Shown here: positions 15,330-64,000 of the stretch, one piece after another
Layout: every line of letters begins with the position of its first letter
How positions within the stretch are numbered: the first letter of the stretch is position 1
Origin: Maylandia zebra
Lineage: Eukaryota > Chordata > Actinopteri > Cichliformes > Cichlidae
NCBI RefSeq assembly: GCF_041146795.1
Contig: NC_135168.1
Span: 11,356,131 to 11,420,130, forward strand
Reading direction: 5' to 3'
DNA length: 64,000 bases
Translations under genes and position numbers: made by a program
Notes under the pieces: generated by a model
Database searches by the model: none
What the model saw: only the letters and a program-made list of their open reading frames with translations
Told to the model about the DNA's origin: nothing

Positions 15330-17864
15330 GTGACAGACAGAGCAGGACCATATGACCAAAGATATTTATCACCATATACATTTGAACATTTGCCATAACG
15401 ATGTAGCTGACGATAGAATTGACACCAGACAAAATACTTTACAGCTGCACAACTTTATTAAAAACCCATCAATGTATTTTCACTGAAACAAGCAGCTGTT
15501 GTTTATGTGCATTAAAGTTATATAAAAATGTAACAGTGCAAATGCAAATTCCTCGCTGACAGTTTAACCAAAAGGCGTTTCCAGTGGAAACTGGCCGACA
15601 CATCCTGAGCATAACCATGTATAATATCCACTAAACTTCAGAAGAGGTTATACAGTCGTGGCCAAAAGGTTTGAGAATTGCATAAATATTGGAACCTGGA
15701 GAAGTTGGTGCTTAAGATTTTATAATACAGATTTGTACTTTATTTCAGATTGAACCTTTAAAGGGGCATTTCTGGACTTTTAAACGCCAGTATGTTCCTA
15801 TAGACCAAATATTTAAAGACCAAAAATGTTCTTCTCTCTTCTCTTCTCTCCCCTTGTTCTCTCTCGTATTTCTGAGAGTGTATCATGTAACACTATAGAT
15901 CAACTTAGCTCAGAATATATAAAGCATATAAACAATTACAGCAATATGATGCAACAAACACAGCAGCTACTGATCCAAAATACTCAAAGCTTCATAGAAC
16001 TGAAACAAACATTTATTTTTAGCTCCATCCTGCTGCTGATACAGACTTTAGGTTTCTGAACATTAAACTTGTTGCTGCCTTTCATAGTGTGTAACTTGAA
16101 GGCCCTGAGTACTTTCTCCCACACTGGAAACACTGGGATGATCACATTATTTGAACATTACCTAATAAGACTGATTCAGCACAGACAGTTATGTTAAACT
16201 TTCCTAGCAGTCCTTCACAAACAGGGAACAGTCTGTCTATTCTCTCCATCTGTCAGCTGCTGCTGGCTCTTCCTCCTCCTCTTCCTCACACACTGCTGAG
16301 TTTGTCCTGGTGGATCATCAGGGCTGCAAAGCCTCACAGATGATGTGCAGCAGTGGGTCCCTCAGTCTGTCCTCACTCTGGACACTTGCAGTCGTCACAC
16401 ATGGAAATCAAATGTGTGATAAGCTGCAGGATTCAAACACAAGTGTAACTTATAAACACATGTTCATACTTTTATTCCACAATCAGAGAGAAAGAAACAG
16501 AGAGAGAGTGCAGGACAGACAGGTGACAGTCTCAGGTGTACACACTGCTACACAACAGCAGCAGAGAAGCAGGATTTAGTGTTTGTGTTATTACGAGTGT
16601 AAACAAGAAGAGTTCCAGATGGTGCAGTGGACACATGTGTGACTGCTGTGATTAAAGCATCTTTCTTTCAGCTTAACGAGTGAACCGTCAGCTCGTTCAA
16701 ACACACGTTAAAGTGCGTTTGGCTCGACACCACCGAACAGAGGCAGCAATATAACATAGCTAACATTAACAGTGCAGTGGATCCTGCTTGTGCCGTGATG
16801 TTCAGGACTGCAAACCGAGCAGCATCACTGACTTTCAGCTTGTTGTGTTTGTGGATATATGACTGACTTTAATTATCCACAAAATCATCACATTCTCTGT
16901 CAGATTAAGGTCGACTATTGAACGGCGTATATTTTAAAGGCTTTAAAACCAAGTTAACGCTGAAAGTACAAACATCACTAATGTCACATAACTCTGCCGA
17001 CAAGGCATAGCTATGGCTATGAAATGCTCTTTGTGTATCACTTCTTCATTATGAAAGATGTCATTAATGCACTAGTAATGTCTCATCTGGAGTATTGTTC
17101 AATCATTTGGTCAGCAGCTAATAAGACAGATCTTAACAGACTTCAGTTAGTCCAGAATAAGGCGTCCAGATTAGTGTGAAGATGTTCATACTATACTAAT
17201 ATTGATCAAATGCATAATAACCTTTCTTGGCTTCCTGTACAGGCTAAAATATTCTATGGCTTACTTGTAGTTCTAAAGAAAGCAATTCTGTTAAACACAC
17301 CACATTTATTCTGCTCAGCTGCAGTATCCAGATGAAATACATCATCATATTACACAGTTTTCAACAAACTGCAATTTAGTAAATGCTCGAGTTAAAAGTA
17401 ACGTTTTGTTAAACTGTTACATTTAGAGCAACTTTTAAGTGGAATAAGTTGCCTTAAAAAATTAGAGAATTATTCAAAACTTCAATGAACACTTAAAAGC
17501 CGATTTACAGAGCTTTTAGTTGTTGTAAATATTGTAAGACATGATTTGTTTTTGAAATTTGTGTAATGTGCCTCAATGTTATTGATATTATTATTATTAT
17601 TATTGATTGCTTATATTTGAACAATTGTGAAACCTCACTGTGGATGTAAGAGTGAAATTATGTGGATATCTTGAATCCACTTTATTGTGTAATATTTTAT
17701 GTGAGTATTTGACGGAAGACGAGCAAAATCTGTTGTGGAAGCTAACGGGGTTCCTTTAGAATAAACAAACATAGGATTTATTATCACTGAATAATTCTGT
17801 ATAAATCTATACAAATTATAGAAATATGTAATAGGAAACAACAAAATAATCTAAATTATAAAAG

Positions 17865-17929
<65 letters not shown>

Positions 17930-20077
17930 AATCAGGAGGGATGGGCATGATTTTAGTGTTTGAACAGTCATGAATTATCTTTAACAGCAGGTTGGATGTA
18001 ATGTGTTAGAACTACCAGCAGGTGGGGATAAGAGACCTTTAAGGTGTTTGGTGCCACGCTCCACCTTCAGGTTTAAAACTAGTGTTAATGGAGTTTGAAG
18101 GTTGAGTTTGTTCCACGACTGCATTTCACTCACTGCCACTGTTTGTATCTCTGTCACTGCAGGACCAACATGGAGCCAGAAGTCAGCGCTCTCAGGAGGC
18201 CGACAAACCTCACAGAAGAAAGGGAGAGAAAAAACACACCTGTGACGAGTGTGGGAAGGGTTTTACTCTGAGGGCTAAACTAAAACGGCATCAGGTCATC
18301 CACACTGGAGAGAGACCGTTCAGCTGTGACTTGTGTGGAAAGTCTTTTTCCTTCAAGGGTCACCTAAAAACACACCAACTCATCCACAGTGGAGTTAAAG
18401 CGTACAGCTGTGATCAGTGTGGGAAGGGTTTTACTCTGAAGGCTTCACTAAAACAGCATCAGGTCATCCACACTGGAGAGAGACCGTTCAGCTGTGACTT
18501 GTGTGGAAAGTCTTTTTCCTTGAAGGGTTCCCTAAAAACACACCAACTCATCCACAGTGGAGTTAAAGCATACAGCTGTGATCAGTGTGGCAGAGCTTTT
18601 ACTCAAAGTAGCCACTTACAGAGGCATCTAGTTACCCACTCTGGAATTAAGCCATACAGCTGTGACGAGTGTGGAAAGGGTTTTACTGTGAGGGCTTCAC
18701 TAAAACAGCATCAGGTCATCCACACTGGAGAGAGACCGTTCAGCTGTGACTTGTGTGGAAAGTCTTTTTCCTTGAAGCGTTCCCTAAAACAACACCAACT
18801 CATCCACAGTGGAGTTAAAGCGTACAGCTGTGATCAGTGTGGCAGAGCTTTTACTCAAAGTAGCCACTTACAGAGGCATCTAGTTACCCACTCTGGAATT
18901 AAGCCATACAGCTGTGACATCTGTGGAAAAACTTTCAGCCAGAGAGGGAGACGAAATGAACACCTACGCATTCACACCAGACATGATGTGTACTGCTGTG
19001 AACAGTGTGGCAAATACTTTACAACTCACACACACTTACAAGAACACATGTTTACCCACACTGAGGAGAGACCTTATCAATGTGACCTGTGTGAGAAGAC
19101 TTTTAAATCTCCACATGACCTGAGACGACACCAACAGATCCACACCAGAAAGAGACTCTACAAGTGCAGCTACTGTGAGGTATGTATTTATATTGTTATC
19201 TTGTCATTTTAGCCTGACTGTTTGGAACAACTCTGCTCATTAAACTGTGTTAGCATGTTAGCAATTCTACTGCATGGAAAAGCAGCTCTGAGTGATTATT
19301 CAGATTTTCCTTTCAGTTATGATTTTAGTATTACTGTAGTATTATGGTGGTAGTATTGTAGTTATTGCAGCCCAGTAAACTGAGTGTGTTAACTGAAACA
19401 GTCAAATGTAGTTGGACGTCTGCAGAGATGCTCTTTATTTCAGGCGACGTTCAGGATACAAATGTTGAAGGACTGACTTACACTGTCTTTGTGTCTTTGT
19501 TTAGAAGCAGAGTGACACAGATGGATCCAGTTCTCAACCCTGTCATGACTGTGGTGGTGGGAAAGACTTTCATTGTGACCTCTGTGGAAAAACTTTCAGT
19601 TGGCAAAAGGCCCTAAAAAGACATCAACGTAGACACACTGGAGACAAACTGAAATACTGCAAAGAATGTGGGAGAAGCTTCACCACATCAAGTGAGTTAA
19701 AACAACATGAACTGATTCACAGTGGGGTTAAAAAGCACCTCTGTGATCAGTGTGGGTCATCCTTCACCACTGCAAGTCAGCTTAAAACACACAAAGGAGT
19801 CCACACAGGAGAGAAACCACACAAGTGCAGACACTGTGAGAGAAGCTTCTCACAGTCAGGTAATCGTAACATTCATGAACGTGGACACATGGAAGGAAAC
19901 TACAGCTGTGACCAGTGTGACAAGAGCTTCAGGAATCTCAGTTCATACTCTGCACACAAACGATCCCACGTTACTAATAAACTGTTTCACTGTTACCAAT
20001 GTGCCCAAACATTCACCTCATTGTCTGCTCTGTGCAAACATCAGCGCGATCACTCAGGGCTGAAATCATTCCCATGA
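15312..20077 (+). CDS. Poly-C2H2 zinc-finger protein, left copy (spliced)
   Basis: The model joins the start exon (15312-15329), exon 18163-19179 and exon 19505-20077, all in phase 0, giving about 535 residues. Acceptor CACTGCAG precedes 18163; donor GAG|GTATGT follows 19179; acceptor TTTAG precedes 19505; stop TGA is 20075-20077. The middle exon has a short basic leader (DKPHRRKGEKK) and 11 full C2H2 fingers of 28 residues with TGE(R/K)P- or SG(V/I)K-type linkers. The last exon has six more, less regular fingers; a partial C-S-Y-C pair ends the middle exon. No KRAB, SCAN or BTB domain is visible. Each finger binds zinc through Cys2His2, and the array would recognise a long DNA site in the nucleus. 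The frame is uninterrupted. Finger 3 looks chimeric. The targets cannot be named. Confidence 0.88.
15651..15745 (+). repeat. Tc1/mariner-type terminal fragment
   Basis: TACAGTCGTGGCCAAAAGGT followed by TTGAGAAT matches the recurring start of Tc1-like elements in fish. Only one end was found, inside the first intron of the zinc-finger gene. Confidence 0.5.
15746..17045. other. Intron sequence without recognised genes
   Basis: This part of the putative first intron of the zinc-finger gene contains only short frames with no recognisable domain. It may also be present in the right duplicate beyond position 64000, which cannot be seen. Confidence 0.6.
17046..17610 (+). repeat. LINE 3' fragment with ATT-rich tail
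   Basis: Read in frame near 17070, the translation gives ALVMSHLEYCSIIWSAANKT followed by LNRLQLVQNKASRLV, the C-terminal block found after the RT domain of many LINEs. It then decays through stops. The tail is (ATT)n at 17580-17603. The same fragment occurs inverted at 63540-64000, and 33 bp of its tail occur again at 28005-28038. Confidence 0.65.
17870..17927 (+). repeat. (TG)29 microsatellite
   Basis: A pure TG run of about 58 bp. The counterpart in the right arm (63198-63287) is about 90 bp. Left-arm sequence TACAATCAGGAGGGATGGG directly after the run is missing on the right. Confidence 0.95.
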
Positions 20078-20740
20078 CTGGATCACAGTGAATCTGAAGA
20101 CGCAGAAAGATCCTCTGGTTTCTGTGTCAGACTCAAAAAGCTTGAGATCAGGCTCCACAGAGTTCAGATAGAATCATTTAAACTTGTGTTGAACTGAACT
20201 GGTTGCTGGGCTGAACTTCTACATAATACAGATCTACATGGGATCTTCTTTTCTGTGTTTTACTGAGTCAGTTTTGTCCTTTTTTCTCTGTCCTGGTTTT
20301 GCTCGTCTGTAAATGATTGAAACTCAGTCAAATAGTTCATTGTTCTCCAGCAAAACGTTTTGGAAACTCATGTTTAACCTTTAAAACTCTGACATGTTTT
20401 AGCACACAAGGCTTCATCGGGGAGTTCACTCATGATTGGACCATGAGAACAAAGGTTTTTAGTTCTTTCAAAGAGAGTCTTGGAGATGTTTGATGTTTCT
20501 GTTTTTCTGAAACCACCTGAAAGAAAAACTATTTTTCTTGCTTTATGTAGTGTGGAAGTTTTTAATGTTTCTTCATCTGTGATGTTCTTGAATGTGTTCA
20601 CGTGAAGATGGTACAAATAAACTGTCCTTTCAGCTTTAGCTCCTAATTTATTCATTATTTATGGATGTAGCACAGGACTAATTTGCCCACTCAGTAAATC
20701 TCACTCATGGTCAAGAAATTGAAATAAACCTTGTTTCCCT
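20078..20740 (+). other. 3' UTR of the left zinc-finger gene
   Basis: Sequence after the stop is conserved in the right duplicate. AATAAA signals occur at 20616-20621 and 20723-20728. The stretch 20374-20655 has no translated difference from the right copy in its minus-strand frame, which I take as recent duplication and not as evidence of an antisense gene. Confidence 0.55.
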
Positions 20741-20859
20741 GCTGGATAGTGATCCACTGTAACTCTGCTGCTCCTTCCTGTTTAGGATTTCTGTGGCTGA
20801 AGTAAAATTCCCTCCATCCATCACTTATCCCAGCTAACCCAAAGCGGGAACGTAACAAG

Positions 20860-20877
20860 TGGGGGCTCGTCCGGGAT
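20860..20877 (+). promoter_or_regulatory. Primer-binding site, tRNA-Pro type
   Basis: TGGGGGCTCGTCCGGGAT is the classical 18-nt site complementary to the 3' end of tRNA-Pro, as in murine leukaemia viruses. It lies 2 bp after the LTR terminus, as expected for priming minus-strand DNA synthesis. Confidence 0.85.
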
Positions 20878-21300
20878 CTTTGAAAAGGGAGTTCTGTGTT
20901 GGATTTGGTTTTCTTTTTGATTATCTCGCTTTGGCACCTTTTAGAGATTAATAACTTCCCAGTTAAGGTAGGTGAGTACCCAGCTGAGCTTTTTAAGTTC
21001 CTCCTTCGGGCACTCTTTTGTTATTTTGCCTTTGTTGTTTTAGGAGTAATCCTGGGTGGGGATTAATTCTCTGTTGGGGGTAAGCAATTCAGGGCTGCGG
21101 TCGCTGAAGTTCTGCCTTTAAAGTTGCCTCGAGCCCAGCACGCTCCGGAAGATAGACAGGGCAAGGTTTTGGAACTGGGTAAGTTGTTTTGTTAACGTGT
21201 GTGTTGCGGAAGGTACGTTGGTCAGCTAAAGTAAGTTGTGTAGTGGTCTGTTAACTGTCTTAATTAGGTTGCGTTTTGCTAACTCTTCACCATCCCCAAA

Positions 21301-22277
21301 ATGGTTGACACAGCTGCTAGTGTACAGGTGTCTAGAGGCTTGTTTGTGAGCAATAACATTCACCTGGTTCCAGACTTCTGTGAATCCAGTGTTCACAGCT
21401 TTTTCAGTGTGTTCGAACGCTTGGCAACTGCACTGCAGTGGCCTCAAGATGTGTGGGGGGTGATGTTGCTGTGTCGGTTGACAGGTAAGGCTCAAGAAGC
21501 GTGTTCTTGTCTGTCTAGGCAGGACGGCCTGGTTTATGGAAAGATCAAAAGTGCCGTCCTCCAAGCCTATGAACTGGTACCTGAGGCCTATAGGCAGAGG
21601 GTTGGAGTTGGCACAGGGACAGTCTTGACTTCGCCAGGGAGAAGGCGAGGCTCTTTGATAGGTGGTGTGCGGCAACCCAGGTTAATGATGTGGGGTCCAT
21701 ACGTGAGCTTATGCTGGTGGAGGATTTTAAAATCTCTGTTCCTAAGTCTGTGGCCCTTTATTTAAGTGAACAGAGGGTTACAACTCTACAGCAAGCTGCC
21801 ACCCTGGCAGATGAGTTTAAGCTGACTCATACAGCAAGTGCGGTAGGACAGGATATCCCTCTGCACTATAGCGCAGCCTGGACAGGTAAAAGTGGGCCAG
21901 CTAAGAAGGAAAATGCAGTTATGGTGTTAAGACCTAGGCCCAAACTGTGTTTTTTCTGTCACAAGCCTGGCCATGTGGTTGCCAATTGTGTCAAAGTGGC
22001 ACTCAAACAGAAAGCCCACTCAACACAAAAGGGGCCTGTTTTGAGAAAAGTCAGTCGTGGCTCTCAAACTGACAAGCTTGCCAGGCCTACGGAAAGGCTA
22101 AACCTGGAGCATAATTGCTCGGTAGCACCCCGTAATCAGTGTACCCTGAGCTGCCGTTGGTTGACCCTTTCTCCGGTTCATGTTCAAAACCACCCTTCAG
22201 ATCTGCACCCCTTGCTAACAAGTATGTCTGTGTTTCAGCGAAGCCTGCTAGCTGCCTGCTGGGTTTTCCACACGTGA
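21301..22277 (+). pseudogene. Gag with SCAN/capsid-like domain and CCHC knuckle
   Basis: Two overlapping frames together describe a Gag. The first (from 21301) has LVPDFCESSVHSFFSVFERL and WPQDVWGVMLLCRLTGKAQE, then AYELVPEAYRQR, the layout of the SCAN-like capsid C-terminal domain of Gmr1-like Ty3/gypsy elements. After an indel near 21610 the second frame continues with REKARLFDRW and reaches CFFCHKPGHVVANC (21953-21994 region), a C-x2-C-x4-H-x4-C nucleocapsid knuckle. The protein would form the element's particle and bind RNA, but the frame is broken and pol is missing. The usable start is presumably ATG 21301, soon after the PBS leader. Confidence 0.8.
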
Positions 22278-22509
22278 TAGTTCGAAGCCCTGGCTATCCC
22301 ATGGGACACTGTTTCGAGGGTTTGGGGCCACTCTCTGGGAATGTTGTGAACCCACTGAGATGGGATTGGCAGCTCCCGCAGGTAATGCCTAACCGGTGCT
22401 ATGGGGTTTGGTAGGTGGAAACCCTGCAATTTCTTCATGAAACGGCTATGGACTCACTTTGTGTTATCGTAAATTTGACAAACCATGGGTTTGCATTTAT
22501 GGGAGGGGG

Positions 22510-22970
22510 TGTTACGGCCCTAGCACGGCCTCTCTCTCTCCTGAGGATGCCTGTGTGGGAGTGTCCCACTACTTCCTGCCCGAAGTGCCACCTTTCCCTC
22601 CTGTACAGCTGACTCCCATCAGCAATTAAAGGTATTTAAGCCCAGAGCAGGGTGAGCTCTGGGCCAGAGTGCCATTTGTGTGGGTACAGCTAGTGAGCTG
22701 AGTGTTTTTGCGGTGTTTCCAGCTGGTGAGCTGTGTTTTGTGGTTTTCAGCTAGTGAGCTGCGTTTTCCTTTTGACATTTTGCATTACTGACCAACGCCT
22801 GAGTTTTGTTTGTGTTACTCTTATGGTGATAGCGGCTTGTCCGTCTCTTTTAGTTTAATTACTTCAATAAAACTGTTTTATTTAACTGTTTCGCCTCCTT
22901 GATTCCTTTTTCTGACCCGGTCACTTTTGTTACTTCCCCCTCCCCGCCTAGACCCCAGGGGAACGTAACA
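22510..22970 (+). repeat. 3' LTR of the gag-only element (461 bp)
   Basis: It begins TGTTACGG directly after the G-rich tract and ends AACGTAACA, giving TG...CA termini. A TATTTAAG box lies near 22633 and AATAAA at 22866-22871, consistent with U3-R-U5 order. Confidence 0.82.
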
Positions 22971-23179
22971 CAAATGGAAGCATGTTTAAAAAACACAATG
23001 TGAGAGAGACGTTGAGGTCCTTAGAAGTTGCCCTGGGTTTTTCTGTCACCCTGCTAGATGTTACACACCTTGTTATTGGACTGATTTCTACTGCTGGACT
23101 ACTCCTGCGGAGAGTAACAATACTCTTACTAATTAGCTCCCTTTCACACCTTTGGGGATATTTATTTTTGTGTTTGCAG

Positions 23180-23617
23180 CGCTGTGAGCCAGAACAGCGA
23201 GAGAAAAATCTGCAACAGCGACGAGCCGAATGCTTACGTGAATCGCAGCAGCTGCACATGTGCTACGCTGAATTAGAGGATATCTTTGCTCTGGATTTCT
23301 ATTTCTACTTTTTCATTTCTATATGATTCTTCTTGCATCTAAACAAAGATGATTCAATTTGCTAAATGTTGATGGCTCTTCGTGCTCAGGTGTAAATGAG
23401 ATGTAATGTTTGCTCTTGGTTTGGTTCTCCTGTACAGAACCTTGCAGTACAACAGAAACCTAAAAACATTATTTGTAGTTGTTATTCTTAGTTGTTCTGC
23501 TGCCTAAATACCACAGGGTCTGATTATGAAGTTATTGAGCTGCACATACGTTACGACCTGCTTAAGTTCGAGGTCACAGCGTCTGTAGAGCAGCTGGAAC
23601 ATAATGAAGTCTACAAG
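23180..23617 (+). other. Two candidate exons of an unrecognised gene (left copy)
   Basis: A pyrimidine-rich stretch ending TTTGCAG (acceptor 23178-23179) precedes a frame starting RCEPEQREKNLQQRRAECL that stays open to 23325. A second stretch, 23517-23617 (101 bp), is bounded by ACCACAG and AAG|GTTAAA. It reads SDYEVIELHIRY then FEVTASVEQLEHNEVYK, with coding-like composition. Both pieces lie downstream of the zinc-finger gene and are duplicated at 58988-59423. I do not recognise the protein. In the right copy a CGA codon has become TGA. They could be exons of a small gene, remnants of one, or chance. Confidence 0.35.
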
Positions 23618-25102
23618 GTTAAAGTTTTCTCTTCAGTTATTGTTCTTTCTGCTGCTTGGTTTGATGGAGCTGAGAGCTTTTGTTTTTATTATTGTTATTA
23701 TAATTATCATTAATATTTTACTCTCTAGAAGCTTTAAAATAGTGTTTGTGTTTGAAAAAATTGATTTAAGAATTGAACAGAAACATCTGTCCTTCTGAAA
23801 ATCGCCCAAAGGCACGGAGACAAAGTCAAAGGATGCAACCTGTAACTTTCTCTTCCTTCATGTCAGGACCATCATCCATGATTTATATAAAATGCATATA
23901 GCAACAGTAGCACTTTAGTTTGGACTTTATGATTTCTGTAACTGGAAAATATTATTTTGTTTAAAGACAGAAGTGACCGCATAGTTGCAACATCAAAGGG
24001 AAATATTAATTAATTAGCATCAAGTATATTTGTTGCTTAAGCGTTTGCACTATAACTTAAGTAGGATTATAACTTTTAAGGAAGGAAAGATTTCAGATAT
24101 TTAGTTCACTGTTTCAGTTATTTTATATGAAATTAAAACATTTACGTTGGTCAAATATGATGCTCTAAATCAAATAAAAGTTTGAAAATAAATGATGTAT
24201 TTTTAAATGCTGCAACAAATGTTCACAAAAAGTAACTATAATTAAAACCAGTTAAACAAAATCAAATGTTTGAATCATGCTTAACCAAATGCCAGGCTGG
24301 AGAGCTGAACCTAAAGTATACGTAGAAAGATTTCAACATCTGAGCAGTTTTTAATGTTTTTATCACATATAAATGTCACAGCAGTGGGTCCTGGCCCAAT
24401 GCTTTGTGTTTTTGGTTTTCTTTGACTCTTGTTTTTCTTGGTTTTTGTTCTTCTTATTTATCAGGCTCTCAGTAATCTTAGTTCTCCCTCCCTCAGTGTT
24501 CATTTCAGCCTGTGTTTAGTTTCTGTTCCCGTGTCCCACATTTCATCGTTTCATGTCGAGTCAGCCCTGTCTCTCTGTTTCCTGTGTCTCCCCAGTCAGC
24601 CCCGCCTCCCTCGGGCACTCATGTGTGATACAGAGTAATAAACCTGACTACATTTGCTACACTCTCTTTATTACCTGTTACTTTAAAATTCATACACTAA
24701 TTATGTCTGCCCATCTCTCTAATGTGAAGGTCAAAGGTCAACATCCTAGTGACATAAGAATAATCCCAAAGGGGCAAAGGCAGCGGTTAATTTAGCACAT
24801 TTAGCATTAAGGGTACAGCAAGGATATACTTTTACTTATTGTGGCAGGGGTGTGGTCTCTGGCCTGCTGCAGTGGAGGCTGGTGGCGGGACGTTGGACGG
24901 CACAGGTGAGGGTGATGGAGCTCATGACTCTCCCCTTTATAGTGACGGAGGAGACTGGCGTGGGGGAAGCGTGTATTGGAGGAAGCCGAGGAGAGAGCTG
25001 GTTTCTGGCTACAAAGACCGCGTCAAACCAGAAAAGATTGCTCGTGGTCAAATGTCAAAGGAGCTTGCAAAGAAAAGCGTCTGGACTTCTTTAAGTTACT
25101 TG

Positions 25103-25137
25103 AAGACGTTTCACCTCTCATCCGAGAAGCTTCTTCA
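25103..25137 (-). ncRNA. Hairpin in the PLE 3' region, hammerhead-like (left copy)
   Basis: Read on the minus strand, CTTCTC-GGAT-GAGAGG forms a 6-bp hairpin, including one G-U pair, nested between GAAGA and TCTTC. It is followed by TGAAACG. Penelope-like elements are known to carry hammerhead ribozyme motifs, and GGATGA...GAAA resembles the two core boxes, but the fit is imperfect and no activity is claimed. Confidence 0.3.
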
Positions 25138-25184
25138 GTTCTAAGGTCAAATGGTGGAGAGTCCCAGATATAAACCTAGTGGGA

Positions 25185-25187
<3 letters not shown>

Positions 25188-25215
<28 letters not shown>
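25188..25215 (+). repeat. C28 homopolymer
   Basis: Twenty-eight consecutive C residues lie in the PLE 3' UTR. The right arm has only a short run of six G on its + strand at the equivalent place (57411-57416). It is either a real expansion or a sequencing or assembly artefact. Confidence 0.9.
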
Positions 25216-25335
25216 AGAGGGACAAAAGGACCCCCTGATGATCCTCTAATCGCCTGAGCCAAGGTGTGAAACTGGGTGTGGGCCCCAATCAGCCAGAGTT
25301 TCGGGTGAGTTCATTGTGAAACCTGGCCCCACCTT

Positions 25336-26355
25336 AATTCAATTCAATTCAATTCAATTTTATTTATATAGCGCCAAATCACAACAAAAGTCGCCTCAAG
25401 GCGCTTCATAGATACAGAGAAAAACCCAACAATCATATGACCCCCTATGAGCAAGCACTTTGGCGACAGTGGGAAGGAAAAACTCCCTTTTAACAGGAAG
25501 AAACCTCCGGCAGAACCAGGCTCAGGGAGGGGCGGCCATCTGCTGCGACCGGTTGGGGTGAGAGAAGGAAGACAGGATAAAGACATGCTGTGGAAGAGAG
25601 ACAGAGGTTAATAACAGATATGATTCAATGCAGAGAGGTCTATTAATACATAGTGAGTGAGAAAGGTGACTGGAAAGGAAAAACTCAATGCATCATGGGA
25701 ATCCCCCGGCAGCCTACATCTATTGCAGCATAACAAAGGGAGGATTCAGGGTCACCTGGTCCAGCCCTAACTATATGCTTTAGAAAAAAGGAAAGTTTTA
25801 AGCCTAATCTTAAAAGTAGAGATAGTGTCTGTCTCCCGAATCCAAACTGGAAGCTGGTTCCACAGAAGAGGGGCCTGAAAACTGAAGGCTCTCCCTCCCA
25901 TTCTACTTTTAAATACTCTAGGAACAACAAGTAGGCCTGCAGAGCGAGAGCGGAGCGCTCTAATAGGGTGATATGGTACTACAAGGTCATTAAGATAAGA
26001 TGGGGCCTGATTATTTAAGACCTTGTATGTGAGGAGCAGGATTTTGAATTCAATTCTGGATTTAACAGGAAGCCAATGAAGGGAAGCCAAAACAGGAGAA
26101 ATATGCTCTCTCTTTCTAGTCCCTGTCAGGACTCTTGCTGCAGCATTTTGGATTAGCTGAAGGCTTTTCAGTGAGTTTTTTGGACATCCTGATAATAATG
26201 AATTACAGTAGTCCAGCCTGGAAGTAATAAATGCATGAACTAGTTTTTCAGCGTCACTCTGAGACAGGATATTTCTAATTTTAGAGATGTTGCGCAAATG
26301 GAAGAAAGCAGTCTTACATATTTGTTTAATATGTGCGTTGAAGGACATGTCCTGG
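25336..26355 (-). mobile_element. 5'-truncated LINE (L2-like) inserted in the PLE
   Basis: The 3' end faces left and consists of repeated AATTG units (25338-25361), read TTGAATTGAATT on the minus strand. The 5' truncation is near 26355. The frame 26390-25767 encodes the post-RT C-terminal domain: HAFITSRLDYCNSLLSGCP, SLHWLPVKSRIEFKILLLTY and LLWNQLPVWIRETD. The right arm has no insertion; there TTATCATGTGATTTCCTGAG joins the same flanks, so about 18 bp of target was replaced or deleted during integration. Confidence 0.85.
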
Positions 26356-26390
26356 TCAAAAATCAGATGGCCCAGGATGTGAGTGGGCAT
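25767..26390 (-). pseudogene. LINE C-terminal coding fragment
   Basis: About 200 codons of the region after the RT domain are open to the stop at 25767-25769. Motifs include RNILSQSDAEKLVHAFITSR, the conserved LHWLPVKSRI block and WNQLPVWIRETDTISTFK. All catalytic RT motifs are absent because of 5' truncation. The apparent start beyond 26355 lies in PLE sequence and has no meaning. The C-terminal block is recognisably similar to that of the + strand LINE at 13.3-13.8 kb. Confidence 0.82.
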
Positions 26391-26502
26391 TAAGGCGTCT
26401 GGGAAGGGAACTCAAAACTGGATTATAGATGGCAGAGAGTTGGTGTCGTAAACCCCGCCTCTGTTCAAAGATGGTCGCTCACAGTTGACATTGATGCTTC
26501 TT

Positions 26503-27487
26503 CAGTGTTGGGAAGGTTACTTTTAAAATGTATTCCATTACAGAATACAGAATACATGCCCTCAAAATGTATTCTGTAACGTATTCCGTTACGTTACTCA
26601 ATGACAGTAACGTATTCTGAATACTTTGGATTACTTAATATATTATCATGCTTTTTACAACAACGTGAATGTACTATTGCTGTGTGATTTATTACTATTA
26701 CTGAAGGTCCGCGACTCCGAACTGTAGTAAAGGGACCTCTGACTAATACGGCGGGGTCCCTGTCGGCTCGTAGCCGAAAACTAGCTTTACTTTGTTGTGT
26801 GGGTCAACTTTTCTTGCGAGAGACAGAGAGAGGCGTTGAAAGACTGCTCCAACGGAATTTATTGTTTTCAGAGGAAAACACGAACACGGTGTACAGTCGA
26901 GTCTTAATAGCTTACTTACAACTGGGCTCGTCAGGCACTCTTCTTGGCTGAAGTGGTTATTATTATATTTACATGCTTCCAGCTCCCGTTTTTCCTTGAT
27001 GACAACTCCTACCTTTCCACTCCCCTTTTTCTCCCTCCTCGCGTTCACAGACCCATAACGTGTATGGCAGTCCATTCTCCCTGCAGCACGGACTACACTG
27101 CCCATGATGCTACATTCTTTAGAGCTATGCTTGTAGCATTCTGCCTGTTAGCTTAGCACAACAACAACAATGAAAAGGTGCTCTCTCACCCAGGAAACAC
27201 ACAGTCGCAGAGAGAGAGAGAGAGAGAGTTGCCCTGTAACCATGGCAACCATGGTAACGCTGCCGCCTGGAACAATAGAACGTAGCTGTCAAACAAAACC
27301 TAAACAGTCCTGACCCGCGAAAAAATGAAACAGGAGAGTACCGCAGTGTAATCCATTTATTTCAACAAAGTAACTGTATTCTGAATACCACCTTTTAAAA
27401 CGGTAACTGTAACGGAATACAGTTACTCATATTTTGTATTTTAAATACGTAACGGCGGTACATGTATTCCGTTACTCCCCAACACTG
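26503..27487. mobile_element. Non-autonomous hAT, 985 bp, with 8-bp target duplication and empty site in window
   Basis: Ends CAGTGTTGGGAAGGTTACTT and the inverse of CGTTACTCCCCAACACTG are flanked by TGCTTCTT at 26495-26502 and 27488-27495. Subterminal GTATTCCGTTAC-type repeats occupy both ends. The interior has no transposase. It splits the GIY-YIG reading frame of the PLE. The right-arm PLE at about 57130-57140 is uninterrupted, with one copy of the equivalent target sequence. Confidence 0.95.
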
Positions 27488-27495
27488 TGCTTCTT

Positions 27496-51585: not shown

Positions 51586-51595
51586 AAAAGAGGGG
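51586..51595 (+). promoter_or_regulatory. ERV2 polypurine tract
   Basis: AAAAGAGGGG lies 3 bp upstream of the 3' LTR's TG, the expected primer for plus-strand synthesis. Confidence 0.85.
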
Positions 51596-51598
51596 AAC

Positions 51599-52257
51599 TG
51601 TTATGATATTTTGATACCACGGCAAGCATTTACAGGATATTGTTTTATACAGGAAAACTGTTACTCAATAAGGCCGATCTACTAGTTGTTTTTCTCTTTC
51701 TCTGTGACCCAAGAATTAATGTGTAAGACTTACAGGCTGGTACCTCAAGGTCGAAAACACCACAGAGATGAGACCACTTCCTTACTCCCATCCTCCCTTT
51801 TTCTTTATCTCCTGGAAAAGGCTCGTTAAAGGCTAGGTGGTTTGTTTCAGAATTCACTAATGAAAGAACTCTGTATTTTATGTCTAGGAGTGTATTTTGC
51901 TGGGATGATCATAAATTGTAGCTGAACTGATAAACTACACAAGGGATACTTTGCTCAGAAGGCAGGAAGACGTTTCCTTATTTGGTCTGTACCGGTTTGA
52001 ACTGGGAAAGCTGACACACGAACCTTTTTTCATCTATATAAACTGCTGTGTATCAAATAAACCTTTGAGTCGATTGGGAAGGCAACCTAAAGCAGTCTCT
52101 GTTTTCTTGTTCTCCCAAGCTGCTCCCGAGCTCGTACTAACACGCTGAATGGCATACCTGAGTGTTACTTTAAATAATTAGGAATCTTAGAAGGAAAGGA
52201 CAGAACTCTGCTTATCGCTCACGCCACGGAGGAAACCCGGGAAGGCAATTTCCTTCA
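51599..52257 (+). repeat. ERV2 3' LTR
   Basis: It matches 44150-44808 base for base in my reading, with the same length and TG...CA ends. It is followed by the target duplication GTTAC at 52258-52262. Confidence 0.95.
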
Positions 52258-56678: not shown

Positions 56679-57221
56679 TTGCCGAATTTAAAGTCAGAAA
56701 AGAGGCACAGAAAAGAAGATCAGACACCAGCGAGGGAGGATAAGAAAGACAGACGCAACAACATTGTCATCCCCTATGTAGCCGGTGTATCAGAAAAACT
56801 CAGGAGAGTTTTCTCCAAGCATGACATCCCAGTGCATTTCAGACCCAACAACACGCTCAGACACAAACTGGTTCACCCGAAAGACAAAACGCCAAAACAC
56901 AGACTTAACAATGTGGTGTGTGCTGTACAGTGCAGCGAGGAATGCCCAGACCTCTACATTGGAGAGACCAAACAGCCACTTCACAAGCGCATGGCACAAC
57001 ACAGAAGAGCCACCTCCACAGGACAAGACTCAGCAGTCCATCTGCATCTTAAGGTCAAAGGTCACTCTTTCGAGGATGCCAATGTTCACATTTTGGACAG
57101 AGAGGACAGATGGTTTGAAAGAGGAGTGAAAGAAGCCATCTATGTCCACTGTGAGCGACCATCTTTGAACAGAGGCGGGGTTTACGACACCAACTCTCTG
57201 CCATCTATAATCCAGTTTTGA
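56679..57221 (+). pseudogene. PLE GIY-YIG endonuclease domain (right copy)
   Basis: About 180 codons are open: NIVIPYVAGVSEKLRRVFSK (linker), then VVCAVQCSEECPDLYIGETK, HKRMAQHRRATSTGQDSAVH and EDRWFERGVKEAIYV. The YIG of the second motif and the R-x3-H helix are present; the first motif (normally G-I/V-Y) is varied. This is the C-terminal nuclease of Penelope-like elements. The upstream RT is missing, so the frame's start lies in the truncated element and is not a genuine start codon context. Confidence 0.85.
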
Positions 57222-57469
57222 GATCCTTCCCAGACGCCTTAACGCCCACTCACATCCTGGGCCATCTGACCTCAGGAAATCACATGATAAGGTGGGGCCA
57301 GGTTTCACAATGAACACACCCGAAACTCTGGCTGATTGGGGCCCACACCCAGTTTCACACCTTGGCTCAGGCGATTAGAGGATCATCAGGGGGTCCTTTT
57401 GTCCCTCTGTGGGGGGAAACTCCCACTAGGTTTATATCTGGGACTCTCCACCATTTGACCTTAGAACTG

Positions 57470-57502
57470 AAGAAGCTTCTCGGATGAGAGGTGAAACGTC
57501 TT
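57470..57502 (+). ncRNA. Hairpin in the PLE 3' region, hammerhead-like (right copy)
   Basis: GAAGAAG, CTTCTC-GGAT-GAGAGG, TGAAACG, TCTTC is identical to the left copy at 25103-25137. The nested stems are intact. Confidence 0.3.
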
Positions 57503-58987
57503 CAAGTAACTTAAAGAAGTCCAGACGCTTTTCTTTGCAAGCTCCTTTGACATTTGACCACAAGCAATCTTTTCTGGTTTGACGCCGTCTTTGTAGCCAG
57601 AAACCAGCTCTCTCCTCGGCTTCCTCCACTACACGCTTCCCCCACGCCAGTCTCCTCCGTCACTATAAAGGGGAGAGTCATGAGCTCCATCACCCTCACC
57701 TGTGCCGTCCAACGTCCCGCCACCAGCCTCCACTGCAGCAGGCCAGAGACCACACCCCTGCCACAATAAGTAAAAGTATATCCTTGCTGTACCCTTAATG
57801 CTAAATGTGCTAAATTAACCGCTGCCTTTGCCCCTTTGGGATTATTCTTATGTCACTGGGATGTTGACCTTTGACCTTCACATTAGAGAGATGGGCAGAC
57901 ATAATTAGTGTATGAATTTTAAAGTAACAGGTAATAAAGAGAGTGTAGCAAATGTAGTCAGGTTTATTACTCTGTATCACACATGAGTGCCCGAGGGAGG
58001 CGGGGCTGACTGGGGAGACACAGGAAACAGAGAGACAGGGCTGACTCGACATGAAACGATGAAACGTGGGACACGGGAACAGAAACTAAACACAGGCTGA
58101 AATGAACACTGAGGGAGGGAGAACTAAGATTACTGAGAGCCTGATAAATAAGAAGAACAAAAACCAAGAAAAACAAGAGTCAAAGAAAACCAAAAACACA
58201 AAGCATTGGGCCAGGACCCACTGCTGTGACATTTATATGTGATAAAAACATTAAAAACTGCTCAGATGTTGAAATCTTTCTACGTATACTTTAGGTTCAG
58301 CTCTCCAGCCTGGCATTTGGTTAAGCATGATTCAAACATTTGATTTTGTTTAACTGGTTTTAATTATAGTTACTTTTTGTGAACATTTGTTGCAGCATTT
58401 AAAAATACATCATTTATTTTCAAACTTTTATTTGATTTAGAGCATCATGTTTGACCAACGTAAATGTTTTAATTTCATATAAAATAACTGAAACAGTGAA
58501 CTGAATATCTGAAATCTTTCCTTCCTTAAAAGTTATAATCCTACTTAAGTTATAGTGCAAACGCTTAAGCAACAAATATACTTGATGCTAATTAATTAAT
58601 ATTTCCCTTTGATGTTGCAACTATGCGGTCTCTTCTGTCTTTAAACAAAATAATATTTTCCAGTTACAGAAATCATAAAGTCCAAACTAAAGTGCTACTG
58701 TTGCTATATGCATTTTATATAAATCATGGATGATGGTCCTGACATGAAGGAAGAGAAAGTTACAGGTTGCATCCTTTGACTTTGTCTCCGTGCCTTTGGG
58801 CGATTTTCAGAAGGACAGATGTTTCTGTTCAATTCTTAAATCAATTTTTTCAAACACAAACACTATTTTAAAGCTTCTAGAGAGTAAAATATTAATGATA
58901 ATTATAATAACAATAATAAAAACAAAAGCTCTCAGATCCATCAAACCAAGCAGCAGAAAGAACAATAACTGAAGAGAAAACTTTAAC

Positions 58988-59423
58988 CTTGTAGACTTCA
59001 TTATGTTCCAGCTGCTCTACAGACGCTGTGACCTCGAACTTAAGCAGGTCGTAAAGTATGTGCAGCTCAATAACTTCATAATCAGACCCTGTGGTATTTA
59101 GGCAGCAGAACAACTAAGAATAACAACTACAAATAATGTTTTTAGGTTTCTGTTGTACTGCAAGGTTCTGTACAGGAGAACCAAACCAAGAGCAAATATT
59201 ACGTCTCATTTACACCTGAGCACGAAGAGCCATCAACATTTAGCAAATTGAATCATCTTTGTTTAGATGCAAGAAGAATCATATAGAAATAAAAAAGTAG
59301 AAATAGAAATCCAGAGCAAAGATATCCTCTAATTCAGCGTAGCACATGTGCATCTGCTGCGATTCACGTAAGCATTCGGCTCGTCACTGTTGCAGATTTT
59401 TCTCTCGCTGTTCTGGCTCACAG
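58988..59423 (-). pseudogene. Two candidate exons of an unrecognised gene (right copy)
   Basis: Counterparts of 23180-23617. The 101-bp exon (58988-59088) keeps its splice sites and reading frame. In the other (from 59423 downward, frame RCEPEQREKNLQQ) the next codon is TGA where the left copy has CGA, a C-to-T change at a CpG. If these are real exons, the right copy is disrupted. Confidence 0.35.
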
Positions 59424-59634
59424 CGCTGCAAACACAAAAATAAATATCCCCAAAGGTGTGAAAGGGAGCTAATTAGTAAGAGTATTGTTACTCTCCGCAG
59501 GAGTAGTCCAGCAGTAGAAATCAGTCCAATAACAAGGTGTGTAACATCTAGCAGGGTGACAGAAAAACCCAGGGTAACTTCTAAGGACCTCAACGTCTCT
59601 CTCACATTGTGTTTTTTAAACATGCTTCCATTTG

Positions 59635-59910
59635 TCACTTCAGTCTTTACTCTGAAATACAGGAAGAGAAATCATGGCTGAAACAATTTCTCATGAAACC
59701 AGGGGTGTGGTCCAACAGTCAGTTTGGTGAGGAAGGTTCCTAACTGAGAGAAGTGACCCAGAAGTATCTGTGTAGCAGCCACAATGAATCCAGATCATGA
59801 GCTTTATTAACTGATCAAAGTCTCTTCTTTCATCTTCTGTATCATTCAGTTTGCATTGGTAATGCCCATTATTGTAATGCTTTTTTAAGACCAGCAAAAC
59901 TTTATTTCAC
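59635..59910. other. 276 bp present only in the right arm
   Basis: It lies exactly where the left arm has the gag-only LTR element. It shows no recognisable gene. It probably represents the original sequence deleted from the left arm when the 5' LTR was lost. Confidence 0.7.
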
Positions 59911-60609
59911 TTTGGGTTAGCTGGGATAAGTGATGGATGGAGGGAATTTTACTTCAGCCACAGAAATCCTAAACAGGAAGGAGGAGCAGAGTTACAGTGG
60001 ATCACTATCCAGCAGGGAAACAAGGTTTATTTCAATTTCTTGGCCATGAGTGAGATTTACTGAGTGGGCAAATTAGGGAGACGACACCATCAGATCCCGA
60101 GCCCTCCATGTGTTAATCAAGAGACGGCTGCTGTGCTACATCCATAAATAATGAATAAATTAGGAGCTAAAGCTGAAAGGACAGTTTATTTGTACCATCT
60201 TCACGTGAACACATTCAAGAACATCACAGATGAAGAAACATTAAAAACTTCCACACTACATAAAGCAAGAAAAATAGTTTTTCTTTCAGGTGGTTTCAGA
60301 AAAACAGAAACATCAAACATCTCCAAAACTCTCTTTGAAAGAACTAAAAACCTTTGTTCTCATGGTCCAATCATGAGTGAACTCCCCGATGAAGCCTTGT
60401 GTGCTAAAACATGTCAGAGTTTTAAAGGTTAAACATGAGTTTCCAAAACGTTTTGCTGGAGAACAATGAACTATTTGACTGAGTTTCAATCATTTACAGA
60501 CGAGCAAAACCAGGACAGAGAAAAAAGGACAAAACTGACTCAGTAAAACAACAGAAAAGAAGATCCCATGTAGATCTGTATTATGTAGAAGTTCAGCCCA
60601 GCAACCAGT

Positions 60610-62980
60610 TCAGTTCAACACAAGTTTAAATGATTCTATCTGAACTCTGTGGAGCCTGATCTCAAGCTTTTTGAGTCTGACACAGAAACCAGAGGATCTT
60701 TCTGTGTCTTCAGATTCACTGTGATCCAGTGATGGGAGTGATTTCAGCCCTGAGTGATCGCGCTGATGTTTGCACAGAGCAGACAATGAGGTGAATGTTT
60801 GGGCACATTGGTAACAGTGAAACAGTTTATTAGTAACGTGGGATCGTTTGTGTGCAGAGTATGATCTGAGATTCCTGAAGCTCTTGTCACACTGGTCACA
60901 GCTGTAGTTTCCTTCCATGTGTCCACGTTCATGAATGTTACGACTATGTGACCGTGAGAAGCTTCTCTCACAGTGTCTGCACTTGTGTGGTTTCTCTCCT
61001 GTGTGGACTCGTTTGTGTGATTTAAGCTGACCTGCAGTGGTGAATGATGACCCACACTGATCACAGAGGTGCTTTTTAACCCCACTGTGAATCAGTTCAT
61101 GTTGTTTTAACTCACTTGTTGTGGTGAAGCTTCTCCCACATTCTTTGCAGTATTTCAGTTTGTCTCCAGTGTGTCTACGTTGATGTACTTTTAGGGTCTT
61201 TTGCCGACTGAAAGTTTTTCCACAGAGGTCACAATGAAAGTCTTTCCCACCACCACAGTGATGACAGGGTTGAGAACTGGATCCATCTGTGTCGCTCTGC
61301 TTCTAAACAAAGACACAAAGACAGTGTAAGTCAGTCCTTCAACATTTGTATCCTGAACGTCGCCTGAAATAAAGAGCATCTCTGCAGACGTCCAACTACA
61401 TTTGACTGTTTCAGTTAACACACTCAGTTTACTGGGCTGCAATAACTACAATACTACCACCATAATACTACAGTAATACTAAAATCATAACTGAAAGGAA
61501 AATCTGAATAATCACTCAGAGCTGCTTTTCCATGCAGTAGAATTGCTAACATGCTAACACAGTTTAATGAGCAGAGTTGTTCCAAACAGTCAGGCTAAAA
61601 TGACAAGATAACAATATAAATACATACCTCACAGTAGCTGCACTTGTAGAGTCTCTTTCTGGTGTGGATCTGTTGGTGTCGTCTCAGGTGCTGTGGAGAT
61701 TTAAAAGTCTTCTCACACAGGTCACATTGATAAGGTCTCTCCTCAGTGTGGGTAAACATGTGTTGTTGTAAGTGTGCGTCTGTTGTAAAGTATTTGCCAC
61801 ACTGTTCACAGCAGTACACATCATGTCTGGTATGAATGCGTAGGTGTGTATTTCGGTACCCTCTCTGGCTGAAAGTTTTTCCACAGATGTCACAGCTGTA
61901 TGCCTTAATTCCAGAGTGGGTAACTAGATGCTTCTGTAAGCTGCTACTGTGAGTAAAAGCTCTGCCACACTGATCACAGCTGTACGCTTTAACTCCACTG
62001 TGGATGAGTTGGTGTTGTTTTAGGGAACGCTTCAAGGAAAAAGACTTTCCACACAAGTCACAGCTGAACGGTCTCTCTCCAGTGTGGATGACCTGATGCT
62101 GTTTTAGTGATGCCTTCAGAGTAAACTCCATCCCACACTCGTCACAGCTGTATGGCTTAATTCCAGAGTGGGTAACTAGATGACTCTGTAAGCTGCTACT
62201 GTGAGTAAAAGCTCTGCCACACTGATCACAGCTGTACGCTTTAACTCCACTGTGGATGAGTTGGTGTTTTTTTAGGGAATCCTTCAAGGAAAAAGACTTT
62301 CCACACAAGTCACAGCTGAACGGTCTCTCTCCAGTGTGGATGACCTGATGCTGTTTTAGTTTAGCCCTCACAGTAAAACCCTTCCCACACTCGTCACAGC
62401 TGTATGGCTTAATTCCAGAGTGGGTAACTAGATGCTTCTGTAAGTTGCTACTGTGAGTAAAAGCTCTGCCACACTGATCACAGCTGTACGCTTTAACTCC
62501 ACTGTGGATGAGTTGGTGTTGTTTTAGGGAACCCTTCAAGGAAAAAGACTTCCCACAAAAGTCACAGCTGAACGGTCTCTCTCCAGTGTGGATGACCTGA
62601 TGCTGTTTTAGTGAAGCCCTCACAGTAAAACCCATCCCACACTCGTCACAGCTGTATGGCTTAATTCCAGAGTGGGTAACTAGATGCCTCTGTAAGTTCC
62701 TACTTTGAGTAAAAGCTCTGCCACACTGATCACAGCTGTACGCTTTAACTCCACTGTGGATGAGTTGGTGTGTTTTTAGGTGACCCTTCCTGGAAAAAGA
62801 CTTTCCACACAAGTCACAGCTGAACGGTCTCTCTCCAGTGTGGATGACCTGATGCTGTTTTAGTGAAGCCCTCACAGTAAAACCCTTCCCACACTCGTCA
62901 CAGGTGTGTTTTTTCTCTCCCTTTCTTCTGTGAGGTTTGTCGGCCTCCTGAGAGCGCTGACTTCTGGCTCCATGTTGGTC
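60610..62980 (-). CDS. Poly-C2H2 zinc-finger protein, right copy (first exon outside window)
   Basis: Minus-strand exons 62980-61628 and 61302-60610 are both phase 0 with the same splice sites as the left gene; the start exon would lie beyond 64000. The first of these (1353 bp) encodes the DKPHRRKGEKK leader and 15 full C2H2 fingers, four more than the left gene. The last (693 bp) has six irregular fingers. After GLKSLP the left gene's TGA is TCA here, and the frame runs 40 residues further, including an amphipathic LKKLEIRLHRVQIESFKLVL, before TGA at 60610-60612. The frame is uninterrupted. The array repeats a three-finger module of types CDLCGKSFS, CDQCGRAFT and CDECGxxFT. Role as a nuclear DNA-binding regulator is inferred from the fingers. 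Confidence 0.88.
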
Positions 62981-63196
62981 CTGCAGTGACAGAGATACAA
63001 ACAGAGGCAGTGAGTGAAATGCAGTCGTGGAACAAACTCAACCTTCAAACTCCATTAACACTAGTTTTAAACCTGAAGGTGGAGCGTGGCACCAAACACC
63101 TTAAAGGTCTCTTATCCCCACCTGCTGGTAGTTCTAACACATTACATCCAACCTGCTGTTAAAGATAATTCATGACTGTTCAAACACTAAAATCAT

Positions 63197-63197
<1 letters not shown>

Positions 63198-63287
<90 letters not shown>
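63198..63287 (+). repeat. (CA)45 microsatellite
   Basis: A pure CA run of about 90 bp, the inverse counterpart of (TG)29 at 17870-17927. Confidence 0.95.
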
Positions 63288-63288
<1 letters not shown>

Positions 63289-63539
63289 TATTTTATAATT
63301 TAGATTATTTTGTTGTTTCCTATTACATATTTCTATAATTTGTATAGATTTATACAGAATTATTCAGTGATAATAAATCCTATGTTTGTTTATTCTAAAG
63401 GAACCCCGTTAGCTTCCACAACAGATGTTGCTCGTCTTCCGTCAAATACTCACATAAAATATTACACAATAAAGTGGATTCAAGATATCCACATAATTTC
63501 ACTCTTACATCCACAGTGAGGTTTCACAATTGTTCAAAT

Positions 63540-64000
63540 ATAAGCAATCAATAATAATAATAATAATATCAATAACATTGAGGCACATTACACAAATTTC
63601 AAAAACAAATCATGTCTTACAATATTTACAACAACTAAAAGCTCTGTAAATCGGCTTTTAAGTCTTCATTGAAGTTTTGAATAATTCTCTAATTTTTTAA
63701 GGCAACTTATTCCACTTAAAAGTTGCTCTAAATGTAACAGTTTAACAAAACGTTACTTTTAACTCGAGCATTTACTAAATTGCAGCTTGTTGAAAACTGT
63801 GTAATATGATGATGTATTTCATCTGGATACTGCAGCTGAGCAGAATAAATGTGGTGTGTTTAACAGAATTGCTTTCTTTAGAACTACAAGTAAGCCATAG
63901 AATATTTTAGCCTGTACAGGAAGCCAAGAAAGGTTATTATGCATTTTATCAATATTAGTATAGTATGAACATCTTCACACTAATCTGGACGCCTTATTCT
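63540..64000 (-). repeat. LINE 3' fragment, right copy
   Basis: The inverse of 17155-17608, with the (AAT)n tail at 63548-63570. It runs off the window end. Confidence 0.65.

Follow-up and report, generated by a model that had tools for sequence, protein, structure and literature searches.

Recent expansions of poly-ZF genes, with selection at the nucleotide-specificity residues of recent paralogs, are evidenced in fugu and zebrafish among others; gene conversion is reported for a few genes in many of the sets described and for the majority of genes in two sets from chicken (Emerson and Thomas 2009, PMC2604467). Cyprinid fish carry the FiNZ-ZNF family, with about 700 members in zebrafish and selection on base-contacting residues, which has been shown to repress transposable elements and is described as unique to cyprinids (Wells 2023, PMC10547256). 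In mouse, young KRAB-ZFP clusters have expanded, along with ERVs, through large segmental duplications, and their fingerprint arrays mostly differ between strains (Bruno 2025, PMC11952569); fishes are said to lack KRAB (PMC11753138). Zebrafish chromosome 4 holds ultra-large families in which hundreds of young paralogs are interspersed with zinc-finger genes (PMC5041008).

Here we analyzed a 64,000-nucleotide stretch of the Maylandia zebra genome (the window) in which two inverted arms each carry a C2H2 zinc-finger gene. Among the matches listed from the open-licence literature, no publication on this zinc-finger family was recognised.

Results

Self-BLAST and piecewise alignment showed that window positions 17154-27940 match 64000-56684 in inverse orientation through four collinear blocks: 17154-20846 with 64000-59909, 22969-25336 with 59636-57288, 26363-26502 with 57269-57130, and 27489-27940 with 57136-56684. 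A first-pass annotation had described these arms as an inverted duplication whose right arm is truncated by the window edge, and both the orientation and the truncation are confirmed: with outer flanks from the same assembly included, the arms stay collinear out to 14652 and 67319, through inverted blocks at 15881-17153 with 65277-64001 and 14652-15727 with 67319-66244. The amplified zinc-finger unit thus has its left copy at 14652..27940 on the forward strand and its right copy at 56684..64000 on the reverse strand, the homology of the latter running on outside the window. The arms are separated by 28,743 bp, which the annotation had taken for a discrete retrovirus-bearing spacer. That description does not hold, because from the right arm inward the sequence remains collinear with C33b, a further copy of the unit, down to 43059, provirus excepted.

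The left array exon encodes 11 C2H2 fingers (18163..19179, forward strand) and is followed by an intron (19180..19504) and a last exon with 6 fingers (19505..20077) that ends in a stop shared with C33a, a copy at C33:6.48 Mb. The right copy has 15 fingers in its array exon (61628..62980, reverse strand) and 6 fingers plus the full C-terminal tail in its last exon (60610..61302, reverse strand). Both window copies therefore have tandem C2H2 fingers, and finger number varies between copies. No KRAB match was found in the four finger exons scanned, and short fish-ZNF N-terminal motifs gave no match in ten copies or in window positions 1-18160. Nothing in the window matched the N-terminal parts of P0084 and P0022 with an E-value below 0.4, and a search of the window plus L009-L028 that allowed E up to 0.5 was likewise negative, so that these motif and N-terminal-part searches returned no N-terminal exon or effector domain for the zinc-finger gene. 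Rfam gave no matches at gathering scores and tRNA genes numbered zero.

Two probes placed at least 69 distinct matches to the zinc-finger unit, the arms being two of them, which lie on contigs C2, C33, C3 and C4 in this genome and in both orientations; first-look candidates numbered at least 411; counted within this one genome, the family thus consists of many recent, clustered paralogs. Noncoding divergence between the left and right copies is 0.74% (37/5020), compared to a family mean of 0.63-0.71% across four regions covered by 6 to 10 copies, and the pair lies below the mean in one region, equals it in one and exceeds it in two. Judged by these 6 to 10 long copies and the features shared with C33a, neither arm is the other's closest relative: a gag-like insert, a 52-bp loss, a 274-bp loss and the C-terminal stop, all derived, are common to the left copy and C33a and absent from the right arm. 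The first-pass annotation was right that transposon insertions and deletions distinguish the arms and that copying was recent. What finds no support is a self-contained palindrome from one inversion-duplication event, as both arms behave like ordinary members of a large family. Known neighbor pairs on C2 lie in opposite orientation in 15/18 cases less than 60 kb apart (p=0.0075), 19/25 less than 100 kb apart and 27/48 over all distances (p=0.47). Since close neighbors tend to opposite orientation, the inverted layout of the arms may reflect how the family spreads.

Mobile elements account for several differences between the arms. The left insert at 20847..22968 (forward strand), a putative gag-like retroelement piece judging by SCAN and zinc-knuckle-like Pfam matches, occurs only in the left copy and C33a among ten long copies, and its position in the right copy is occupied by 274 other bases (59637-59908). 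A fragment in the left copy at 25337..26362 (reverse strand), with 18 target bases missing, appears LINE-like from short similarity to a reverse transcriptase (RT) frame at 12216-13427 and had no Pfam hit. The insertion at 26503..27488 in the left copy has an 8-bp target-site duplication and an empty site in the right arm; it is putatively hAT-like from its terminal motif. At the inner arm ends lies a GIY-YIG retroelement fragment (27489..27940, reverse strand, paired with 56684-57136), presumably Penelope-like. These fragments are more divergent than other noncoding sequence (16/591 versus 27/4343, p=1.7e-5), an unexplained excess. Separate insertion of the two, which the higher divergence had suggested, was considered and rejected: the left one is split by the hAT-like element with its target duplication and is otherwise collinear, and it was therefore taken as part of the arm. 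Between the arms, the provirus at 44150..52257 (forward strand) is young, with LTRs that differ at 1/664 positions, a 5-bp target duplication and an empty site kept in C33b. A second retrovirus-like set of open frames lies at 34942..41831 (reverse strand), with RT, RNase H and integrase in two of the frames.

Coding divergence between the left and right copies is 3.4% (54/1593) versus 0.62% (27/4343) for noncoding sequence (p=5.5e-14), and amino acids change at 27/68 contact codons versus 9/462 other codons. The annotation's statement that translated differences are very few is contradicted by these 36 changes in 530 aligned codons. Exons of 25 aligned copies differ by about 3.5%, and coding divergence exceeds noncoding in 300/300 pairs. 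An identical 322-bp intron is found in 15/25 copies whose exons differ at a mean of 28.8/813 sites (105 pairs), and the best 40 genomic matches to intron stretch 19183-19504, both window copies included, are all 100% identical. In a second set, picked for identical introns and including both window copies, last exons differ by 3.35% and 21/21 proteins are distinct. Exon differences are ten or more times those of the intervening intron. Diversity at 20078-20500 is only 0.09%, compared to 0.63-0.71% in other noncoding sequence; such low diversity near the probes is partly a product of how copies were chosen, as best matches to the 3' or intron probe. Noncoding DNA unaffected by this choice is ~99.3% identical between copies.

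Across the 25 aligned copies, 28/36 contact codons vary in amino acid versus 35/235 other codons (p=5.5e-14), with differences concentrated at helix positions -1, 2, 3 and 6; this nonsynonymous excess at DNA-contact residues was found by counting methods and Fisher tests rather than codeml. As aligned, the coding copies appear near-identical except at the amino acids predicted to read DNA, which differ in nearly every copy in the manner of a shuffled set. Synonymous diversity is 0.046 at contact codons versus about 0.012 elsewhere, and codons with synonymous variation are not significantly enriched (contact 4/36, other 15/235, p=0.29). Finger backbone codons, with piN of 0.0140 and piS of 0.0129, have no clear purifying selection. 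In the last exon, finger 6 does not vary among 46 copies, and 35/46 have an identical finger 5. Finger exons are mostly open across copies; damaged copies include L059, with a frameshifted last exon, L029 and L037, with interrupted array exons, and the left copy and C33a, with their C-terminal stop.

Several observations bear on exchange between copies. Four-gamete failure was 0.530, compared to 0.586 (sd 0.008) under complete shuffling. Mean r2 was 0.120 at 3-15 bp and 0.045-0.062 beyond, where 0.042 is expected without linkage, and 0/500 permutations gave as strong a decay with distance. Coding variants are near linkage equilibrium, exon positions being combined almost at random across copies, and informative sites at intermediate frequency number 71 in coding versus 4 in noncoding sequence. 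Identical finger variants reappear beside different neighbor fingers, and in-frame finger-to-finger fusions delete the intron in 3/30 copies. Similarity of the left copy to C33a is a mosaic, with 25/3209 differences upstream versus 12/5024 over the exons and insert (p=0.0005, for a boundary picked after inspecting the data), and the shared tract has a weak exon excess by raw counts (6/1593 exon versus 6/3431 noncoding). No donor pool for exchange was found.

Discussion

The reading we favor, and consider reasonably probable, is that each arm is a member in its own right of a large and young family, spread over several contigs, whose segmentally copied polydactyl C2H2 units are subject to exon exchange and diversifying selection. 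It draws on the at least 69 placed matches, arms no closer than average, exon divergence above noncoding, the contact-residue excess, near-equilibrium variants, the mosaic and the fusions. The units would have spread by a burst of segmental duplication, and dispersed copies would have traded finger-exon sequence through short-tract gene conversion or unequal exchange; diversifying selection would maintain differing predicted DNA-binding specificities. The selected role is most plausibly recognition of retroelements like those littering the region, and the pattern suggests that the specificity of DNA binding is strongly selected, with retroelements as the probable target. Against exchange counts the four-gamete value, which is still below full shuffling, and recurrent mutation under selection could also yield four-gamete failure. 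Counted against the favored reading as a whole are the raised synonymous contact diversity, the lack of clear purifying selection on the backbone, the negative searches for an N-terminal exon or effector domain, the low diversity that probe choice partly produced, and the damaged copies.

Had a recent burst been followed by positive selection on new point mutations without exchange, a contact-residue excess would also be combined with low flank divergence, a kind of pattern already published for poly-ZF expansions (PMC2604467). We consider this alternative unlikely because variants at intermediate frequency are near linkage equilibrium, finger variants reappear beside different neighbors, synonymous diversity is raised too, and the exon excess in the tract shared with C33a is weak. 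The raised synonymous diversity, and changes clustered at the same codons across many fingers, would be expected of a mutational process targeting contact codons, but so few contact codons vary synonymously, and fingers 5 and 6 of the last exon are so constant, that such a process is very improbable.

Copying itself could be explained otherwise. The presence of matches on four contigs, in either orientation, would fit a gene dispersed as cargo of a mobile element, which seems improbable given that block ends differ by copy and no common terminal structure was noticed among ten long copies, although some differing ends stem from later insertions, which weakens this objection. A single recent palindrome homogenized by arm-to-arm conversion would leave near-identical inverted arms around an interval, as seen here, but it is disfavored by the distance between the arms, the many further copies elsewhere and the features shared with C33a, and we give it very little credence. 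An assembly artefact, through a haplotype retained inverted or a mis-join, is unlikely as judged from the assembled sequence alone, to the point that we give it almost none: the window contains no N, the arms are distinguished by substitutions, by how many fingers they have and by insertions, of which one has a target duplication, and matches with differing exons occur at many places.

Returning to the favored family of exchanging units, it is conceivable, though we hold it doubtful, that zinc-finger genes, hundreds of them and nearly identical, are kept in a vertebrate germline as a combinatorial library of specificities, exchange between dispersed copies continually re-assorting the modules while the rest stays homogeneous. 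If so, new retroelements would face a ready-made repertoire of DNA-binding proteins, which bears on the open question of how hosts gain new anti-transposon zinc-finger specificities quickly enough. Because the flanks date the copies and the contact residues record their diversification, selection, mutation and exchange could become separable within one genome. As a caution, finding an inverted repeat inside a cluster like this does not by itself imply a private duplication.

Compared with known systems, the locus resembles large sex-chromosome palindromes (PMC8981503) in its near-identical inverted arms, but its arms are not mutually closest and form part of a family spread over several contigs. 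Hundreds of young paralogs among zinc-finger genes recall zebrafish chromosome 4, although that account concerns NLR genes and calls its zinc-finger genes not characterised (PMC5041008). Mouse KRAB-ZFP clusters share segmental duplication, ERVs and variable fingerprint arrays, whereas their description does not appear to report contact-residue re-assortment and the term "gene conversion" is absent from its main text (PMC11952569). FiNZ-ZNF genes are likewise fish genes with hundreds of members and base-contact selection, but are given as cyprinid-only (PMC10547256), and no N-terminal domain was found here. Poly-ZF expansions share recent paralogs with contact-residue selection (PMC2604467); unlike in their description, coding variants here are near linkage equilibrium on flanks ~99.3% identical. 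Families of this kind are already known; what is unusual is re-assortment this free on DNA that is nearly identical.

Inverted arms belong to a dispersed zinc-finger family

Self-BLAST and alignment confirmed the large inverted duplication proposed in the first-pass annotation, with collinear arms, and extended it beyond the reported arms: homology runs on to 14652 on the left and, past the window edge, to 67319 on the right. The left (14652-27940, plus strand) and right (56684-64000 in the window, minus strand) copies each carry two inward-pointing exons of a polydactyl C2H2 gene. The array exon encodes 11 fingers in the left copy and 15 in the right; the last exon encodes 6 in both. Splicing between these exons is supported by a predicted Astatotilapia calliptera protein (P0089) that joins the same two sequences; a search for an N-terminal exon of the zinc-finger gene found none. 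The left last exon ends in a stop at 20075-20077, after finger 6, and the right one still has the C-terminal tail that Maylandia zebra P0142 shows as well. The closest homologs are cichlid (Oreochromis niloticus P0084, M. zebra P0142 and P0022, A. calliptera P0089). In the predicted P0142, an N-terminal part that looks unrelated precedes the C-terminal fingers and tail of this family; the prediction is possibly a chimeric gene model.

The two arms are not a private pair, as near-identical matches occur on four contigs of the assembly (962 Mb, 63 contigs), whose contig C2 holds the window at 11356131-11420130. With a 501-base probe, the best 40 of at least 411 first-look candidates (the query locus among them) showed 99-100% identity and lay on C2, the window's contig (20), C33 (16), C3 (3) and C4 (1). 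With an intron probe, the best 40 of at least 411 candidates were all 100% identical and all on C2, both window copies included. Merging both probes gave at least 69 matches, at least 49 of them on C2. Away from the probed sequence, 6 to 10 copies differed pairwise by 0.63-0.71% on average, and left and right differed at 37 of 5020 sites summed over four regions (0.74%).

The sequence between the arms, described earlier as a spacer, reads otherwise in C33b, a copy among the eight other long ones. There, sequence matching 56247-52256 runs straight on into sequence matching 44152-43059 and stays collinear with the right unit inward to 43059. The arm boundary at 56684/27940 is therefore the left copy's end and not a palindrome boundary. 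The plus-strand provirus at 44150-52257 is young, with LTRs differing at 1 of 664 bases; its target duplication is 5 bp long, and C33b retains the empty site. A second retrovirus-like element lies on the minus strand at 34942-41831; its open frames encode reverse transcriptase, RNase H and integrase domains, and self-BLAST of the window found no LTR pair for it. Reverse transcriptase frames also lie in the left flank at 1809-2918 (with a Pfam PF09004 match) and 12216-13427. A CT-rich tandem array with a period of about 40 lies upstream of the left unit (14472-14630), and related repeats are scattered over about 1 kb of the right flank (77938-78950 in window numbering).

Close neighbours tend to be inverted, which we treat as a lead: among the matches listed, and with distance limits of our choosing, orientation was opposite for 15 of 18 pairs of known neighbours less than 60 kb apart (p=0.0075), 19 of 25 less than 100 kb apart and 27 of 48 at all distances. 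On C2 between 4.9 and 13.5 Mb known close neighbours often alternate, as at 11331506 (-), 11375313 (+), 11417433 (-), 11464946 (+) and 11531655 (-), 42-67 kb apart.

Coding diversity is concentrated at DNA-contact codons

Left and right differed at 54 of 1593 coding sites versus 27 of 4343 noncoding sites (p=5.5e-14), the latter counted without the microsatellite, a poly-C run and GIY-YIG retroelement fragments (26363-26502, 27489-27940 / 56684-57269); the GIY-YIG fragments are more diverged than the rest of the noncoding arm, at 16 of 591 sites. Contact codons were taken as helix positions -1, 2, 3 and 6, the usual C2H2 convention. Of 68 contact codons, 27 carried an amino-acid change between the arms, versus 9 of the 462 remaining codons (p=1.8e-19, odds ratio 33); the counts were 15 of 36 versus 6 of 248 where finger alignment is unambiguous (p=5.8e-11), and 9 of 24 versus 4 of 166 in the last exon alone (p=9e-7). 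PMC2604467 and PMC11952569 use the same helix-position convention.

A first set of 30 copies comprised both window copies and 28 of 39 other places from the 501-base probe, and the 25 whose alignment covered 1650 or more of the 1741 bases were used for family statistics. Exons were mostly open, the 25 showing no indels and no stops in the compared coding part. Five copies were left out. L029 and L037 have an interruption in the array exon and an open last exon; C33d (L019/L020), L041 and L044 lack the intron, a finger of the array exon being joined in frame to one of the last exon, and these fusions are natural finger shuffling. Finger number also changes, the array exons of nine long copies with separate exons holding 6, 6, 8, 11, 11, 11, 13, 14 and 15 fingers.

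In all 300 pairs among the 25 copies, divergence was higher in coding than in noncoding sequence, the latter including probe-selected bases. Exon parts differed by 5.1% and 2.9% and the intron by 0.30%, probe choice lowering diversity close to the probes; 10 of 11 variable intron sites were singletons, a star-like pattern as read from these sites. Contact codons were variable at 28 of 36 versus 35 of 235 others (p=5.5e-14), with a nonsynonymous diversity of 0.222. Synonymous diversity was 0.018 overall, 0.046 at contacts and about 0.012 elsewhere, and codons with synonymous variation numbered 4 of 36 contacts versus 15 of 235 others (p=0.29). Backbone codons gave no clear purifying signal (piN 0.0140 vs piS 0.0129).

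Coding variants assort near-freely among copies

Informative sites numbered 71 coding and 4 noncoding. The four-gamete test was failed by 1296 of 2445 coding pairs (0.530) versus 0.586 (sd 0.008) under full shuffling of every column, so some linkage remains. Mean r2 fell from 0.120 at 3-15 bp to 0.045-0.062 at greater distances, with 0.042 expected without linkage, and decay this strong occurred in 0 of 500 permutations. The intron was base-identical in 15 of 25 copies, and their exons differed at a mean of 28.8 of 813 sites (range 9-42).

A second set held 20 copies on C2, 20 of the 40 intron-probe places, picked for a 100% identical intron; 19 last exons were open and one (L059) frameshifted. 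With both window copies, the open ones gave 21 of 21 distinct last-exon proteins, differing by 3.35% on average (0.18-5.44%). The 46 last exons (the 25, the 19, L029 and L037) yielded 41 different fingerprints, defined by five helix positions. Finger 6 never varied and finger 5 was identical in 35 of the 46, a pattern that speaks against a blind mutational process.

The left copy and C33a, a further copy at 6.48 Mb on C33, share a gag-like insert, losses of 52 and 274 bp and the stop; at that insert/loss site the right copy, C33b and the C4 and C3 copies have the same spacing, about 496 bp. Similarity between the left copy and C33a is mosaic, with differences at 25 of 3209 sites upstream versus 12 of 5024 over the exons and insert (p=0.0005, boundary set after seeing the data), as exchange or copying of a roughly 5-kb tract would produce.

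Proposed mode of evolution and known systems

We propose that a burst of segmental duplication spread the units and that exon tracts were exchanged between copies. Judged from sequence, selection may have favoured varied DNA recognition, with retroelements as putative targets of the finger proteins. At a mutation rate of about 3.5e-9 per generation, 0.65% pairwise divergence would correspond to roughly a million generations.

PMC2604467 establishes that recent poly-zinc-finger paralogs are under positive selection at their specificity residues, and PMC10547256 that a fish zinc-finger family represses transposable elements; PMC11952569 describes ERV-rich young KZFP clusters in mouse grown by segmental duplication. 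By its sequence the present family evolves like all three and may work like them, the likeness to KRAB and FiNZ groups being one of mode of evolution. It differs in the extent to which coding variants re-assort over otherwise nearly identical DNA, as seen among copies within one genome.
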